The notes under the pieces are model-generated. The model ran no database searches, was not told where the DNA came from, and was given only the letters and a program-made list of their open reading frames with translations. This document shows positions 9,591 to 39,254 of a stretch of DNA of 64,000 bases, piece after piece. Source of the DNA: Solibacillus silvestris. GTDB taxonomy: Bacteria; Bacillota; Bacilli; Bacillales_A; Planococcaceae. Position 1 is the first letter of the stretch, and each line of letters opens with the position of its first letter. The position numbers and the translations under genes were made by a program. The stretch covers positions 3,442,501 to 3,506,500 of the forward strand of contig CP014609.1 in the NCBI GenBank assembly GCA_001586195.1. Reading direction: 5' to 3'.

Positions 9591-9719
9591 GCCCCGGCAT
9601 ATGTCACAGATTTTTTTAAGGAAAATGAAGTCAGCCTAAATACGTCACATCATGTGACAACGGCTGACTGACCCACATCCTGTGGGCCTCAAAAAATCTA
9701 GACGCAAATACGCCGAGGC
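9591..9719. repeat. Multi-stem palindromic element (possible mobile repeat or structured RNA)
   Basis: Nested complementary arms: outer GCCCCGGC (9591-9598) with GCCGAGGC (9712-9719) and AGATTTTTT (9608-9616) with AAAAAATCT (9691-9699). Inside lie one hairpin AGTCAGCC / GGCTGACT (9629-9636, 9662-9669) enclosing GTCACAT / ATGTGAC (9644-9658), and another CCCACA / TGTGGG (9672-9686). The fold is a closed stem with two internal arms. Such compact palindromes are typical of dispersed intergenic repeats; no second copy is present in this window. Confidence 0.6.
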
Positions 9720-33103: not shown

Positions 33104-33132
33104 TTGACAATGGTAATTACCTCCAATATTAT
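33104..33132 (+). promoter_or_regulatory. Strong sigma-A promoter for the exporter leader
   Basis: TTGACA at 33104-33109, 17-base spacer, TATTAT at 33127-33132. The spacer contains the perfect palindrome GGTAATTACC (33112-33121), a possible repressor site. Lies 46 bases before the leader-peptide start. Confidence 0.8.
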
Positions 33133-33177
33133 TAAGGAACACTAAATAAATTAAAACAAGGAAAGGAGTTTAGGGAT

Positions 33178-33276
33178 ATGATGACACCAATTGTAAAGTT
33201 ACCAATTTCAACAGCGACAATTTCATATTGCCCTAACCTGAACTTTTGTTTTAATTTCGCACGTACTTGTAAATAA
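33178..33276 (+). CDS. 32-residue leader peptide upstream of the ABC exporter
   Basis: Short ORF with an excellent ribosome binding site (GGAAAGGAG at about 33160-33169) and ATG ATG start at 33178. The product begins MMTPIVKLPISTATISYC, ends FCFNFARTCK and holds three cysteines. The stop TAA (33274-33276) is 3 bases before the first terminator hairpin. In B. subtilis the small ORF bmrB precedes bmrCD and controls it by ribosome-mediated attenuation; position and layout match here, although I cannot claim sequence similarity. A secreted or modified peptide is an alternative, since an exporter follows, but no processing enzyme is present. Confidence 0.7.
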   Translation: MMTPIVKLPISTATISYCPNLNFCFNFARTCK

Positions 33277-33279
33277 AAA

Positions 33280-33310
33280 GCACAGGTGTGGACTCCCCCT
33301 GTGCCCTTTT
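33280..33310 (+). terminator. First leader hairpin (attenuator terminator 1)
   Basis: Stem GCACAGG (33280-33286) / CCTGTGC (33298-33304) followed by CCTTTTCGTTTTG. Its loop side contains AGGTGT, complementary to the 5' arm of the second hairpin. Confidence 0.75.
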
Positions 33311-33316
33311 CGTTTT

Positions 33317-33353
33317 GACACCTTTTCGAAAAATCGGAATAGGTGTCTTTTTT
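33317..33353 (+). terminator. Second leader hairpin (attenuator terminator 2)
   Basis: Stem GACACCT (33317-33323) / AGGTGTC (33341-33347), extended inside by TTTCGA / TCGGAA, followed by TTTTTTTG. A textbook terminator lying 174 bases upstream of the ABC exporter gene. Confidence 0.88.
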
Positions 33354-33434
33354 GTTTGCATTGGCCGTGTTTTTAAATATCCGCGGAAAATGTACGATGC
33401 ATTTTAGTGTAACAACATTTTAGGAGGGCTTTAT

Positions 33435-33491
33435 ATGACTATCATTTGGCAGCGAAAACTATTAAAAATGGATCGATACGATGATGGGTAG
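33435..33491 (+). CDS. 18-residue mini-ORF before bmrC-like gene
   Basis: ATG at 33435 is preceded by AGGAGGG (33422-33428) at good spacing; the product starts MTIIWQRKLLK and ends with Gly-stop (TAG 33489-33491). It lies after both leader terminators and 36 bases before the exporter start. It may be a second leader peptide or simply assist ribosome loading. RBS quality is the only support for translation. Confidence 0.45.
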   Translation: MTIIWQRKLLKMDRYDDG

Positions 33492-33527
33492 CAACACGAT
33501 CAACAATGAAGAAAGAAGGTATACGTA

Positions 33528-35270
33528 ATGTTTAATGTATTTGTGAAATTAAAGTGGTTTTTAAAACTGTACCGTAAGCAATATACAATTGCGATTGTGC
33601 TCCTTATGCTGGCGAGCTTTATCGAAGTCTTGCCGCCATGGATTTTAGGGGAAGCCATTGATGACATGACAAATGGAGATATGGATCAGATGCAGCTGCT
33701 GAAGTATGTAGGCTTCGTTATTGGCGCTGCCATCGTGAGCTACGCTTTAAACTTCATCTGGCAATACCAGCTGTTTGGCGGTTCGATCGCACTGGACCGT
33801 ATATTACGTAAAAAACTGATGCACCAGTTTTTAAAAATGACTCCTACATTTTATGAAAAAAACCGTACCGGTGACTTAATGGCAAAAGCTACAAACGACT
33901 TGAATGCCGTAACATTGACAGCTGGCTTTGGTATTATGACACTCATTGATTCCACGGTCTATATGGCATTGATTATTTTAGCAATGGGCTTTTTCATTTC
34001 TTGGAAGCTGACATTTTTCGCGATGCTCCCGATTCCTGTCATGGCTCTAATCATTCAATATTTAGGAAAAATTGTTCATGAACGTTATATGAAAGCACAG
34101 GATGCATTCGGAGAGATGAATGACAATGTGTTGGAATCTGTTGCGGGAACTCGCGTAATCCGCGCGTACGTTCAAGAAGGAAAAGATGAAGAACGCTTCG
34201 CTGAAATGAGCGAAAACATTTTTGCCAAAAATATGCGCGTCGCTTATATTAACGGACTCTTTATGCCAATCACAAAAATTGGAACTGGCATTTGTTATGT
34301 CATCGCATTGGGCTATGGTGCTGTTCTTGTCTCAAATTCTGAGCTAACGGTCGGTCAGCTCGTTTCATTCAACGTATATTTAGGTTTGGCAATTTGGCCA
34401 ATGTTTGCTATTGGCGAGCTGATCAATGTCATGCAGCAAGGGAGTGCTTCACTTGACCGTGTACAGGACACATTGGAATATGAAGCGGATGTACAAAACC
34501 CTCCTTCACCAATGACGCACCAAGTACCAAATTCTATCGGGTTTTCTGAGTTTACATTCCAGTATCCTCTATCTCAGGTAAAAAACTTGCAGCAAATCTC
34601 ACTGAATCTGAAAAAAGGGCAGACACTCGGTATTGTCGGTAAAACAGGTGCAGGGAAAACAACATTTATTCGCCAACTGTTACGTGAATATCCGTTAGGC
34701 AATGGGCAAATCGCCATTAATGATACGGACTTGGCACAAATGACAAAAGAACAAATATTGGACTGGATCGGCTATGTGCCACAGGACCATGTACTATTTT
34801 CCCGCACAATCCGCGAAAACATTTTATTCGGGAAAGAGGATGCTACGATTGGCGAAATCGAGGAAGCCATTCGTTTAGCAGACTTTGAAAAAGATTTATC
34901 AAATTTACCGCTTGGCATTGAAACACTTGTCGGTGAAAAAGGCGTATCTTTATCAGGTGGTCAAAAACAACGTGTATCAATCGCACGTGCCTTAATTAAA
35001 GATCCGGAAATTTTAATTTTGGACGATTCTTTATCAGCAGTCGATGCGAAAACAGAATCAAAAATCATTGAAAATATACAAACAGAGCGCGCTGGAAAAA
35101 CGACGATCATTTCAACTCACCGCCTGTCAGGTATTCAGCATGCGGATGAAATAATCGTGCTGGATGATGGTTATATCGTTGAACGAGGTACACATGAAGA
35201 GCTTCTACGCTTAGGTGGTTGGTACAAAGAGCAGTTTGACCGCCAGCAGCTTGAGGAGGTGGAGCAATGA
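33528..35270 (+). CDS. bmrC: ABC exporter half-transporter, degenerate-site subunit (BmrC/YheI-like)
   Basis: Half-transporter (580 residues) of a heterodimeric multidrug exporter. Seen: six-helix ABC membrane domain (about 15-310), then an ATPase domain with Walker A GKTGAGKTT near 375-383, signature LSGGQKQR, Walker B LILDDS and H-loop STHRL. The catalytic glutamate after Walker B is Asp (DDS), the mark of the noncanonical site in BmrC, LmrC and TM287-type proteins. It overlaps the partner gene by 4 bases. RBS is a modest GAAGGT. Control by the upstream leader is inferred. Family members export drugs such as antibiotics acting on ribosomes. Confidence 0.88.
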   Translation: MFNVFVKLKWFLKLYRKQYTIAIVLLMLASFIEVLPPWILGEAIDDMTNGDMDQMQLLKYVGFVIGAAIVSYALNFIWQYQLFGGSIALDRILRKKLMHQFLKMTPTFYEKNRTGDLMAKATNDLNAVTLTAGFGIMTLIDSTVYMALIILAMGFFISWKLTFFAMLPIPVMALIIQYLGKIVHERYMKAQDAFGEMNDNVLESVAGTRVIRAYVQEGKDEERFAEMSENIFAKNMRVAYINGLFMPITKIGTGICYVIALGYGAVLVSNSELTVGQLVSFNVYLGLAIWPMFAIGELINVMQQGSASLDRVQDTLEYEADVQNPPSPMTHQVPNSIGFSEFTFQYPLSQVKNLQQISLNLKKGQTLGIVGKTGAGKTTFIRQLLREYPLGNGQIAINDTDLAQMTKEQILDWIGYVPQDHVLFSRTIRENILFGKEDATIGEIEEAIRLADFEKDLSNLPLGIETLVGEKGVSLSGGQKQRVSIARALIKDPEILILDDSLSAVDAKTESKIIENIQTERAGKTTIISTHRLSGIQHADEIIVLDDGYIVERGTHEELLRLGGWYKEQFDRQQLEEVEQ

Positions 35271-37006
35271 GTACATCAAAACGACTGTACCTGTATGCTT
35301 TGAAATTTAAAAAACCGATTTTAATCGGATTAGCCTTATTAACAATTGCCGTTGCAACAGATATTGCCGGACCGTTCATTGCCAAATATATTATCGATCA
35401 TCATATGGAACCGGGTAATCTGGAAGTAGAACCGATTGCAATCTTATTATCGATTTTCTTCTTATTGTCTGTTCTGACAGCAGTGTTCCGATATTTAATG
35501 TTCATCTTTTTACAACGAGGTGCAAACTTCGTTATCCAGCAGTTACGGAAGGATGTTTTCGGTCATATTCAAAAGCTACCAATTGAATACTTCGATAACC
35601 TGCCGGCCGGTAAAGTTGTAGCCCGTGTCACAAATGATACAGAGGCAATCCGCAACCTGTATGTAACTGTACTTTCGCAATTTGCGAACAGCTTTATTAC
35701 CATTGCAGGGGTATATATAGCATTATTTATACTAAATTGGAAAATGGCACTGTTTGCTCTATTGCTTGTTCCGATTGTTTATATTTGGATGATTTTATAC
35801 CGGAAATTCGCTTCCCAGTACAACCATATTATTCGAACAAAAATTGCGGACATTAACGCAATGATCAACGAATCGATTAATGGGATGACGATTATTCAGG
35901 CATTCCGCCGTGAAGAACAGATGAAGCAAGAGTTCGACGAGATGAATGATGAACATTACAAATACAACCGTAAGCTTTTATTGCTGGACTCTGCGACATC
36001 ACATAACCTCGTAAATATTTTACGTCTTGGAATGTTTGCAGTTTTCGTTTATTACTTCGGCACCCAATCAATGACAATGCCTGAAGCAGTATCAGCCGGT
36101 ACGCTATATGCGTTTGTTGATTATATTACACGCCTGTTCAATCCGATTACGAACTTAGTCAACCAGTTCTCTCAGCTGGAACGATCTTTAGTTGCAGGAT
36201 CTCGGGTATTTGAACTGCTTGATCAGCAAGGGGAAGCTGTAAGTACAGAACGAATCGAACGCTATAAAGGAAATGTTGTGTTTGATCATGTATCATTCGC
36301 CTATAAAAATGATGAATATGTATTGAAAAATATTCACTTTGAAGCAAAAGAAGGCGAAACGATCGCACTTGTCGGTCATACAGGTTCAGGGAAAAGCTCA
36401 ATTATGAATTTACTGTTCCGCTTCTACGACCCGCAAAAAGGCCGAATTATCATTGACGGGAAAGATATTACGAAACTTCCTCGCCAAGCGATTCGCGAAC
36501 ATATGGGAATCGTATTGCAGGATCCGTATTTGTTCACCGGAACGATTGCCTCGAACATTAGCCTAAATGATAAGCGGATTTCAAGAGAAACTGTTGAAAA
36601 AGCGCTAGAAGCAGTCGGTGGCGAACGTGTTTTATCGAAATTTGAAAAAGGAATTGATGAGCCTGTTATTGAAAAAGGAAGTACCCTTTCTTCCGGACAG
36701 CGCCAGTTAATTTCGTTTGCGCGTGCGCTTGCATTTGATCCGGCTATTCTTATTCTGGATGAGGCGACATCGAATATCGACTCAGAAACAGAGGAAATTA
36801 TTCAGCACGCAATGGATGTATTGAAAAAGGGACGTACGACATTTATTATCGCCCACCGACTTTCCACTATTAAAAATGCAGATAAAATTTTAGTATTGGA
36901 CCGTGGTGAAATTGTTGAACAAGGCAGCCATGATGAACTTGTCGCACTTGGCGGTAAGTATGAACTTATGTATCGCCTGCAATCCGGTTCATTAACTTCT
37001 TCATAA
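35267..37006 (+). CDS. bmrD: ABC exporter half-transporter, canonical-site subunit (BmrD/YheH-like)
   Basis: Partner half-transporter of 579 residues. Seen: six-helix membrane domain, Walker A GHTGSGKSS near 370-378, Walker B LILDEATSN with intact catalytic Glu, H-loop IIAHRL, and a variant signature TLSSGQRQL in place of LSGGQ. Walker A/B of this subunit pair with the intact LSGGQ of its partner to form the active site, while the variant signature pairs with the partner's Asp site. It is shorter than B. subtilis YheH, which carries an extra insertion. RBS GGAGG lies inside the upstream gene; the 4-base overlap indicates coupling. Confidence 0.88.
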   Translation: MSTSKRLYLYALKFKKPILIGLALLTIAVATDIAGPFIAKYIIDHHMEPGNLEVEPIAILLSIFFLLSVLTAVFRYLMFIFLQRGANFVIQQLRKDVFGHIQKLPIEYFDNLPAGKVVARVTNDTEAIRNLYVTVLSQFANSFITIAGVYIALFILNWKMALFALLLVPIVYIWMILYRKFASQYNHIIRTKIADINAMINESINGMTIIQAFRREEQMKQEFDEMNDEHYKYNRKLLLLDSATSHNLVNILRLGMFAVFVYYFGTQSMTMPEAVSAGTLYAFVDYITRLFNPITNLVNQFSQLERSLVAGSRVFELLDQQGEAVSTERIERYKGNVVFDHVSFAYKNDEYVLKNIHFEAKEGETIALVGHTGSGKSSIMNLLFRFYDPQKGRIIIDGKDITKLPRQAIREHMGIVLQDPYLFTGTIASNISLNDKRISRETVEKALEAVGGERVLSKFEKGIDEPVIEKGSTLSSGQRQLISFARALAFDPAILILDEATSNIDSETEEIIQHAMDVLKKGRTTFIIAHRLSTIKNADKILVLDRGEIVEQGSHDELVALGGKYELMYRLQSGSLTSS

Positions 37007-37052: not shown

Positions 37053-39254
37053 CTATTCTTTAAGCTTTTTATTCGGCCAGTATGACCACTTACCAAATAC
37101 CGTAATAAGGGCTGGTACGAGCAATGGACGTACGACAAACGTATCAAGCAGTACCCCAACCGCTGTAACAATACCGAATTGTACTAATAGCTGAATTGGT
37201 AATGATGCCAATACTAAGAATGTACCCGCTAAAATCAGACCCGCTGACGTAATAACTGCACCTGTTGAAGCAATACCATTTGAAATAGCCTGCTTATGCG
37301 CAGCGCCGCGTTTACGGTTTTTCCATATATCAGAAATCATGAAAATATTATAGTCGTTACCTAATGCGATAATAAATACGAAACTATATAGCGGAATCGA
37401 ACTTGCCATTGCTTCGTGTCCTAAACCGTAATGGATGATCAGCCAACCTGCACCTAAAGCAGAGAAGAAGGATATCACTACTGTTACCATTAATTGAATT
37501 GATGTAATTAGAGCTCGTAAGTAAGCTAATAATACGATGAAAATAATAATAATCATAACAGGCTGAATAATGTTTTCATCGCCCGACTGAACAACTTTTG
37601 TATCTAGTTGAGAGCTTGTTTCGCCCCCTATCCAGAATTGGCCGTCTTTCAGATTGCTATCCGCAAGAATTCCCTTAACATCGTCTTTCATTTGCTCAAC
37701 ATCATCCATTGCTTCATTCGAATATGGATTTTTATCCAAATCGATTTCATAAAGTTGGATATTGTTATTTGTCTCACCTGTACGCATTTCTTTTACTACA
37801 CCGACATATGGAAGCCTTAACAGTTGCTCTGTAATGTCCAGATCAGTACCTTCACTGTCTATTAATAACTGAACCGGTGCCAATTCACCTGGTGTAAAGT
37901 TTTCTTCAATAATTTTAAATCCTTCACGTGAAGGCATATCTTCAGGGAATGAAGATATTAAATCGTAATTGTATTTAATATTTGTGGAAGCGAATGCTAA
38001 ACCGATTAAAACCGCTCCCGCTACAATAATGACAAGCCATGGTTTTGATGTAACAAATTCACCAATCGCACGCATATAACGGTGATTTGGTTTACGTGGT
38101 TTATACGGTTTGTTTTTCTTTTCTGCATTCGCTTTTTCAGCTTCCTCCGTACGAGGAACAAACGGCCAAAATGCTGCACGGCCTAAAATGCCAAGAACGG
38201 CAGGGAGCAATGTAACTACGGCAAATCCTGTAATTAATACACCAAAGCTAAATGGAACGGCAAAACGCTGGAATGCGCCGTAATCTGCCAATGCCAATGT
38301 CGCTAAACCGATTACAACTGTTAAACCACTCATTACAATTGCGCCTGTTGATTCACGAACAGCCGATGCCAATGCCGTAAATTTATTATCTTCAGTCAAC
38401 AATATGTCTCGATAACGTGTAATTAAAAATAAACAATAGTCCGTACCTGCACCAAACAGTAAAACAATCATAATCGCTACCGCTTGCGCATCTTTATCGA
38501 TCCATCCATTTTCAGCCATAGCACCCAGTAAAGGACTTACAACTAAATATGCAATCCCTACTACTACTAACGGGATAATCGCTAAAATTGGCGAACGATA
38601 AATTACTAATAAGATGACTAAAATTATAATTACAGTGGCAATCATAAGTTGTACGTCAGCTGCTTTGAAAAGATCTGTCGCATCAATTGAGATACCAACT
38701 GGTCCAGAAAATCGGGCATGAAGTCCTTTATCTTCCAAGTTTGTATCATACGGATTTTCACCGAATTGGCTTTCTGTACGTTCTTGAATAATCGCTAAAT
38801 TTTCTTTTAAAACATCTGAGTTTTTCTCAGTTGAGAAGAAAACAGGTGTGACAAGTGCTGCACCGTTCTCAGAAAGTGAACCCATTAATGCTGTAACGGG
38901 AAGTTCATGGAATGGCGGAATTGTTTCCTGCCCATCTAACGGCTCATCTGCCAGTTGTTTGTATAACCCTTGAATATTTGTCAGATCTTCTTCTGTAAGA
39001 CCTGATTCATTGTACCAAGTAATTAATAGTGGTATACCACTATCTGACGAGAATTCTTCTTCCATAATGTTTCCTGCTTGAATCGAAGTATAAGTATCAG
39101 GGATTTCATCACCCGAATAGTTTTCAACACTATTAACTTGCGGGAAGATAAGTGCAAACACAACCGCAAACATAATCCATAATGCAACAACTATCCAACG
39201 AGTTTTTTTACCGCCCATTACACTTCCCCATTTTTCCAATGGATGTTTAGCCAT
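37053..39254 (-). CDS. MMPL-family RND-type membrane exporter (YdgH-like)
   Basis: Membrane exporter of 733 residues. Seen: first helix at about 19-36, an extracellular loop (37-180), helices with the MMPL motif GAGTDYCLFLITRYRD near 272-287, a cytoplasmic charged linker rich in Glu/Lys (about 370-395), a second loop, and the second motif ALGNDYNIFMISDIWKNRKR near 635-654. Both Asp-Tyr pairs of the proton relay are present. ATG 39254 follows GGAGGGGGG. It is divergently arranged with a MerR-B12 regulator, which may control it. B. subtilis YdgH is the nearest described type; substrate unknown. Confidence 0.88.
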   Translation of the reverse strand: MAKHPLEKWGSVMGGKKTRWIVVALWIMFAVVFALIFPQVNSVENYSGDEIPDTYTSIQAGNIMEEEFSSDSGIPLLITWYNESGLTEEDLTNIQGLYKQLADEPLDGQETIPPFHELPVTALMGSLSENGAALVTPVFFSTEKNSDVLKENLAIIQERTESQFGENPYDTNLEDKGLHARFSGPVGISIDATDLFKAADVQLMIATVIIILVILLVIYRSPILAIIPLVVVGIAYLVVSPLLGAMAENGWIDKDAQAVAIMIVLLFGAGTDYCLFLITRYRDILLTEDNKFTALASAVRESTGAIVMSGLTVVIGLATLALADYGAFQRFAVPFSFGVLITGFAVVTLLPAVLGILGRAAFWPFVPRTEEAEKANAEKKNKPYKPRKPNHRYMRAIGEFVTSKPWLVIIVAGAVLIGLAFASTNIKYNYDLISSFPEDMPSREGFKIIEENFTPGELAPVQLLIDSEGTDLDITEQLLRLPYVGVVKEMRTGETNNNIQLYEIDLDKNPYSNEAMDDVEQMKDDVKGILADSNLKDGQFWIGGETSSQLDTKVVQSGDENIIQPVMIIIIFIVLLAYLRALITSIQLMVTVVISFFSALGAGWLIIHYGLGHEAMASSIPLYSFVFIIALGNDYNIFMISDIWKNRKRGAAHKQAISNGIASTGAVITSAGLILAGTFLVLASLPIQLLVQFGIVTAVGVLLDTFVVRPLLVPALITVFGKWSYWPNKKLKE

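Follow-up and report, generated by a model that had tools for sequence, protein, structure and literature searches.

The closest described relative of the locus reported here is the bmrB-bmrCD operon of Bacillus subtilis, in which bmrCD is induced by lincomycin, erythromycin and chloramphenicol and in which control by lincomycin requires both a terminator and translation of the leader (PMC4191407, accessible part). As given there, readthrough is reduced and induction lost when translation of the leader is blocked, codon optimisation also reduces readthrough, and the leader gene bmrB, 162 bp long with an annotated GTG start, ends 119 bp before bmrC; a chromosomal in-frame bmrB fusion gave no signal, and a plasmid fusion did. 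In B. subtilis, translation stress is gauged with reporters of bmrC (yheI), which respond to several kinds of translation inhibitor (accessible parts of PMC5039519 and PMC8670375). It is also possible that the small RNA Bas28 (rhaX-yheI), observed in strain FZB42 (PMC4634765, accessible part), is the trace of a terminated leader of the bmrB type.

We analysed a stretch of 64,000 nucleotides, hereafter the window, from the 3.99-Mb genome of Solibacillus silvestris. Judged by its predicted proteins, an exporter operon in this window (Table 1) is the orthologue of bmrCD, since (i) its first product is 60% identical to B. subtilis YheI/BmrC over 580 positions, (ii) the second has YheH/BmrD, a longer protein (681-residue chain), as its best match of solved structure, and (iii) the next best BmrC copy in the same genome is only 44% identical. 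That copy belongs to a second heterodimeric exporter pair (C1:1817686-1821175; 44% and 30% identical to the BmrC of the window), and the 44% subunit is without the uORF2 motif described below in its upstream region. The operon is adjoined by a convergent gene for an MMPL-family RND transporter (37053-39254), which scores below the curated cut-off of its family, and a match to the Rfam family RF01690, Bacillaceae-1 RNA, lies at 9620-9686 (74 bits). Our main reading, which we hold at a probability of roughly 0.78, is that the bmrCD operon is preceded by a ribosome-sensing attenuator and then by a second conserved upstream reading frame, uORF2, that most likely adds a translational layer.

Table 1. 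Features of the bmrCD upstream region and operon, in window coordinates
Feature	Coordinates	Strand	Remarks
Sigma-70-type promoter	33104..33132	+	TTGACA-17-TATTAT; 11/12 consensus matches
Segment 1, SD and start region of uORF1	33163..33180	+	AAGGAGTTTAGGGATATG; pairs with late leader
uORF1, 32-codon leader ORF	33178..33276	+	MMTPIVKLPISTATISYCPNLNFCFNFARTCK, then stop; SD AAGGAG
Segment 2, late leader	33223..33248	+	TCATATTGCCCTAACCTGAACTTTTG; partner of segment 1 or segment 3
Segment 3, 5' arm of hp1	33278..33292	+	AAGCACAGGTGTGGA; pairs with 33231-33246 at -11.7 kcal/mol
hp1 (segments 3:4)	33280..33304	+	-13.1 kcal/mol; weak T tract CCCTTTTCG
hp2, main intrinsic terminator	33317..33353	+	hairpin 33317-33347, -15.8 kcal/mol; T tract TTTTTT 33348-33353
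uORF2, 18 codons	33435..33491	+	MTIIWQRKLLKMDRYDDG, then TAG; SD AGGAGGG 33422-33428; stop 36 nt before bmrC
bmrC orthologue	33528..35270	+	580 aa
bmrD-like partner	35267..37006	+	579 aa

An initial annotation of this DNA had proposed an attenuator ahead of a heterodimeric ABC exporter, composed of a strong promoter, a 32-codon reading frame with a good ribosome-binding site (uORF1) and two hairpins beginning 3 nt behind its stop codon. All of these parts are confirmed, and the proposal itself is supported, in that the exporter is orthologous to BmrC/BmrD and relatives repeatedly show an SD-led leader ahead of a terminator. Folding of 33150-33370 is better than that of any of its 200 dinucleotide shuffles (z -4.84). 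Promoter-like sites are barely more frequent in the whole stretch (5) than in shuffles (3.3 expected), and hence it is the quality of the match that counts and not the number; TTGACA is also present at nine further loci (L009-L017). A terminator pattern search called one site, 33285-33305, which is an overlapping register of hp1; hp2, which is bulged, was not called. In the regions upstream of the orthologue that were read in 16 genomes of the genus, uORF1, hp1 and hp2 stand ahead of bmrC without exception, and the arrangement is thus not due to chance. Of the scorable cells of hp2 in the genus alignment, 118 of 119 are paired, with the whole hairpin contained in 8 of 16 rows and the other rows cut by the stretch chosen; the hp1 pairs as folded in the window reach only 82 of 158 cells, because the 3' arm of hp1 is out of register in this alignment, and relatives form hp1 in other registers. 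Over 33305-33347, the sequence of hp2 is conserved beyond the needs of a terminator, CCCTTTTTCGTTTTGACACCTTTTCG being nearly invariant in the genus, and arms resembling GGCATATCG...CGGTATGCC are seen by eye in many Bacillaceae. Between the promoter and the leader SD, the probable RNA start GGAACACTAAATAA (33136-33149) is strongly kept in several genera.

BmrC orthologues at E <= 1e-195 occur in 222 of 261 genomes of the family. We read 193 upstream regions, 190 with distinct last 300 nt. The family contributed 93 of them, namely the 30 with the best scores, 40 selected for coverage of its genera and another 23; a further 20 represent 18 other families, and 80 are named loci among the matches listed in one scan. 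Six paralogues of the 44% type were kept out. Among the 137 loci that have both uORF2 and a called terminator, 126 show a short leader ORF with a strong SD and an ATG start ahead of that terminator, and an SD-led leader is also found before the terminator in 38 of 51 loci without uORF2; uORF1 of the window, a predicted ORF, has the same place relative to its ribosome-binding site and intrinsic terminator. Leader tests were made on 125 of the 139 uORF2-bearing loci, the rest being without terminator, leader or a long enough segment, and on 102 loci after repeats had been removed; a few of the automatic leader calls look wrong (e.g., L224).

Two complementarities of the leader RNA are conserved with covariation, one between the leader SD and the late leader (1:2) and one between the late leader and the 5' arm of hp1 (2:3). 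Pairing of the SD and start region with the late codons is among the best 5% of shuffles at 77 of 125 loci (6 expected; mean z -2.58), and at 44 of 102 loci it beats at least 95% of pairings with segments of other loci (5 expected), the swapped partners having been taken from other genera or, for named loci, from any other locus. The letters that pair differ by lineage, for example GGAGGTATGACAAA with GTTGTTCATACCTTCC in L075 and GGGTTACGTGATG with TCATATACGTAACC in L204. For the late leader and the hp1 zone, 26 of 102 loci fall in the best 5% (5 expected; mean z -0.80), whereas three negative-control pairings in the same analysis gave 9, 4 and 7 of 102 (mean z -0.12, +0.10 and +0.04). Ensemble folding, run without a shuffled control, forms 1:2 at 101 and 2:3 at 76 of the 102 loci, and 2:3 energies across the 16 genus genomes, likewise without shuffle control, range from -9.7 to -13.0 kcal/mol. 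The excess of 1:2 is absent in g7 (2 loci), in f37 (1) and at the single loci L045, L046 and L184. In several loci of Rossellomorea only one terminator was called, and it is complementary to the late leader (e.g., L203, z -3.4). The window itself is a middling case for both pairings: its 1:2 duplex of -13.7 kcal/mol is equalled by 13 of 200 shuffles and narrowly misses the best 5%, the mean over the 16 loci of the genus is weak (z -1.18), and its 2:3 pairing is unremarkable when taken alone (z -0.8).

Taken together, the two complementarities lead to the classical chain 1:2, 2:3, 3:4. By analogy with the B. subtilis operon, for which switching is proven in print, an untranslated leader would pair its SD with the late codons, so that hp1 and hp2 would form and transcription would stop; under fast translation the ribosome would cover segment 2, with the same outcome. 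A ribosome slowed or stalled by antibiotic early on uORF1 would instead cover segment 1 and leave segment 2 free to pair with the emerging 5' arm of hp1, whereupon hp1 would be lost and RNA polymerase could continue into uORF2 and bmrCD. The reduced readthrough from an untranslated leader in B. subtilis is as 1:2 pairing predicts, and the chain is able to explain what has been published on that operon. This switch model is weakest here where RNA polymerase has to pass hp2 on induction. Equilibrium folding gives hp2 a probability of 0.95 for the unoccupied RNA and for all 18 ribosome positions modelled, and pairing of the hp1 zone with hp2 is not enriched over the 102 loci; the model thus does not account for escape from hp2. 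As candidates for mutually exclusive structures, 1:2 and 2:3 have covariation across loci behind them; a link from them to hp2 was not found in the window. Freeing segment 2 changes the pairing of the hp2 5' arm of the window little (0.24 vs. 0.16), and a domino from hp1 to hp2 (segment 4:5), tried as a route past hp2, gave no result.

Three other readings of the leader have to be weighed against this model. As hp2 is always formed in the folding model, the hairpins could be regarded as a constitutive double terminator that insulates the exporter from the promoter and, without any sensing, permits a weak basal readthrough; such insulation would, however, leave the conserved SD-led ORF, the covarying 1:2 and 2:3 pairings and the published regulation of the orthologue (PMC4191407, accessible part) without explanation, so that we regard it as most improbable. 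A simple means of disarming hp2 is offered by the switch of the initial annotation, in which a ribosome stalled near the uORF1 stop lets AGGTGT in the 5' arm of hp1 (33284-33289) pair with ACACCT in the 5' arm of hp2 (33318-33323) and both terminators are broken at once. The hexamers do lie at these positions and are complementary, all six pairs are intact in 5 of the 16 genus genomes, and an extended hp1:hp2 complementarity is visible by eye in g18. Yet in the other 11 genomes one or two of these pairs are lost with ACACCT unchanged (82 of 96 cells paired), so that compensation is absent; over the 102 loci, the hp1 zone and the 5' arm of hp2 are not complementary in excess (mean z +0.08, with 8 loci in the best 5% where 5 are expected). 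In the folding model the hexamers have no role: a ribosome on the stop codon covers the 5' arm of hp1 and removes hp1, but hp2 stays at 0.95. On these three grounds we rejected the hexamers as the switch, a reading that we hold to be very unlikely.

It was also claimed that the leader peptide defines an inducer range of its own, that is, uORF1 would encode an antibiotic-specific arrest peptide whose C-terminal FCFNFARTCK stalls the ribosome. A conserved arrest sequence is the mark of antibiotic-specific arrest leaders like ErmCL. Within the genus there are signs of peptide constraint: SYxP is kept in 15 of 16 genomes, the peptide is matched at E <= 0.01 in 9 of 16, and among the six closest genomes amino-acid changes are almost absent from codons 15-32 (pN 0.008 vs. 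pS 0.093) but not from codons 1-14 (0.117 vs. 0.111). The constraint on the late codons is ambiguous for the peptide, however, because the same nucleotides are segment 2 of the RNA switch and are needed for 1:2 and 2:3. Moreover, while ORF and hairpins are kept throughout the genus, no uORF1 peptide shared between genera was found; a search of 151 genomes with the peptide gave matches at E <= 1 in 75, for the most part probably due to chance. Within the genus itself the frame is shifted in L045 and the stops are moved in L050-L053, so that five of 16 copies are frameshifted or shortened. The response of B. subtilis reporters to several kinds of translation inhibitor (accessible parts of PMC5039519 and PMC8670375) also speaks against an inducer range peculiar to the peptide. 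An arrest peptide that sets its own inducers is therefore improbable in our view, and we prefer to read uORF1 as the ribosome-sensing part of the RNA switch.

The leader of the B. subtilis group deserves a second look in this light. Eight of its loci were read (L179-L186; strain 168 is not among them). In B. spizizenii (L183), the region from -303 to -125 relative to bmrC holds a 53-codon GTG frame of the BmrB type, with a 4-base SD match and its end 125 nt before bmrC, and, overlapping it in another frame, the ATG ORF MPRNLRVCKTVSYWCGKPHVLFD with a 7-base SD match. All five of the closest loci (L179-L183) retain this ATG ORF together with its 1:2 pairing (GGTTTGC with GCAAACC), whereas, by reading, a long BmrB-like frame is open through the terminator in two of these five and in four of all eight. 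As far as these sequences can tell, the annotated BmrB frame is thus probably not the conserved leader, although it may well be translated, as the plasmid fusion gave a signal and the chromosomal one none. If the conserved frame does differ from the annotated one, past constructs will need to be reread.

Between the terminators and bmrC lies uORF2, which is absent from the initial annotation. It was defined by its C-terminal pattern (Asp/Glu at -3 or -4; Gly, Asp or Ser at -1), by an SD and by a stop 10-130 nt from bmrC; the identity of the stop codon, the spacing within this range, codon third positions and the next base were outside the definition. Such a frame is found at 139 of 190 distinct loci, as compared with 0.2% of dinucleotide shuffles, and in all 16 genus genomes. 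It starts with ATG in 131 and stops with TAG in 133 of the 139, and its stop lies at a median of 34 nt before bmrC (interquartile range 31-37; 28-44 nt in 114). Among 136 non-redundant copies, 125 have 17-20 codons with the start placed by the SD rule, the base after the stop is T or C in 128, and the last Gly uses all four codons (third-position entropy 1.94 bits). The corresponding residue counts, Gly in 126 and Glu/Asp in all 136, are partly built in, since the pattern itself favours acidic and Gly endings, and we therefore recounted the best-SD small ORF with a stop 25-45 nt before bmrC, regardless of peptide and stop codon. This rule yields an ORF at 125 of 190 loci, 119 of them with TAG; of 122 non-redundant ORFs, 117 have Glu/Asp at -3 and 105 have Gly at -1. 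In the count by pattern, the other SD-led small ORFs of the zone use TAG, TGA and TAA 28, 29 and 24 times (by subtraction). The definition by pattern fails at 51 of 190 loci, among them all four of g10, all three of g16, 11 of the 18 other families and six loci of the B. subtilis group (L179-L183 and L185), where an ORF without a good SD ends in EGG with TGA; two of the three g16 loci have ORFs ending RDD or RDG with TAG.

The constraint on uORF2 appears to lie on the end of the peptide and on the stop codon, because eight tests of RNA pairing among the bmrC SD, uORF2, its SD, the upstream sequence and the bmrC start gave mean z of only -0.02 to +0.08. Folding around uORF2 is not in excess either (z +0.27), and a role for the region in RNA pairing was accordingly rejected. 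Readthrough of the stop into bmrC was likewise rejected, since the spacing is not linked in frame to bmrC (54/49/36 by remainder modulo 3). The motif is specific to its place: the window genome has one match, at bmrC, and of 60 matches over 61 genomes 27 are at bmrC (by reading of their places) and 33 elsewhere, equal to the 33 of a backward control, so that uORF2-like ORFs before other genes were dismissed. The motif was found before none of seven paralogous exporters (43-46% identical). The end of uORF2 overlaps with an out-of-frame ORF, MMGSNTINNEERRYT (33481-33528), whose TAA shares bases with the ATG of bmrC (TAATG); ORFs similar to it are seen by eye in a few genus genomes and in none of the other genera looked at. 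No report of uORF2 was found in the literature as far as covered, from which most subscription papers are missing, and it is apparently undescribed.

In the likeliest reading, uORF2 would be a second, translational control layer that acts at the step from its own termination to initiation at bmrC; a stall at UAG is one possible form of it, and plain coupling or a small protein are others. That uORF2 is no sensor, and instead either specifies a small functional protein belonging to the exporter or merely supplies bmrC with ribosomes through termination-reinitiation, is an alternative that we take seriously and place somewhat short of even odds. Its uniform length and stop-to-start spacing speak for this, as does the ratio pN/pS, which, taken over the final six codons together, is only moderately low (0.53; preceding six, 0.73). 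On the other hand, the N-terminal half of uORF2 differs between genera, the spacing is not frame-linked, and bmrC and uORF2 have SDs of similar strength (-11.0 and -10.6), so that coupling would not be essential; nor does simple coupling need an acidic residue at -3, Gly at -1 or TAG in place of TAA. Peptides that arrest termination in the manner of TnaC are short and are constrained both at the C-terminus and in the choice of stop codon; conserved C-terminal residues and a fixed stop codon, by which the class is judged, are both found in uORF2. It is thus tempting, if doubtful, to speculate that uORF2 is a widely kept sensor of the termination stage, in which a nascent chain of ∼18 residues ending [ED]-[SGD]-G would slow RF1 at a UAG ∼34 nt before bmrC. 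The state of termination would then set exporter translation or mRNA life behind an attenuator that reads elongation, two different ribosome sensors would stand in series, and BmrB would be a misassigned frame. The signature itself is strong, a constrained C-terminus and stop codon at 139 of 190 loci, and, if the speculation is true, nascent-peptide control of termination is directly testable in a laboratory strain; were uORF2 to act at its UAG stop, a well-studied resistance operon would possess an undescribed second control point.

How the locus relates to known leaders can now be stated. We know of no sequence similarity between TnaC-type peptides and uORF2, and of no [ED]-x-G-UAG ending in the ermB leader. 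Two small ORFs in one antibiotic-responsive leader are nevertheless what ermB offers with ermBL and ermBL2, although that leader controls ermB by translational attenuation (PMC8274638, accessible part), unlike the transcription attenuator proposed here. With vmlR the locus would share an upstream ORF placed within an anti-antiterminator stem, antibiotic stalling that leads to an antiterminator, and a translational layer added downstream; in vmlR the uORF is of 3 codons and a hairpin that sequesters the SD precedes the gene (PMC9226507, accessible part), whereas the second layer here would be an ORF, for which no sign of pairing to the bmrC SD was seen. In its ending uORF2 looks like a termination-arrest peptide of the TnaC type (PMC8429421, accessible part), its own arrest being putative. 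Closest of all is bmrB-bmrCD, with which the locus shares an orthologous exporter, a leader ORF and an intrinsic terminator between leader and bmrC, and for which three competing structures have been proposed and induction by 50S-targeting drugs reported in B. subtilis (PMC4191407, accessible part). It differs in that the leader described there is a 53-codon GTG frame containing the terminator, whereas the conserved SD-led frame here, as in the relatives of B. subtilis that were read, is shorter, begins with ATG and stops before the terminator, and in that two terminator hairpins are present in the window. uORF2 would fall in the 119-bp gap between bmrB and bmrC, and the accessible part of that report makes no mention of it. 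Our reading would give the operon of the window a ribosome-sensing attenuator of the bmrB type and, most likely, a translational layer behind it.
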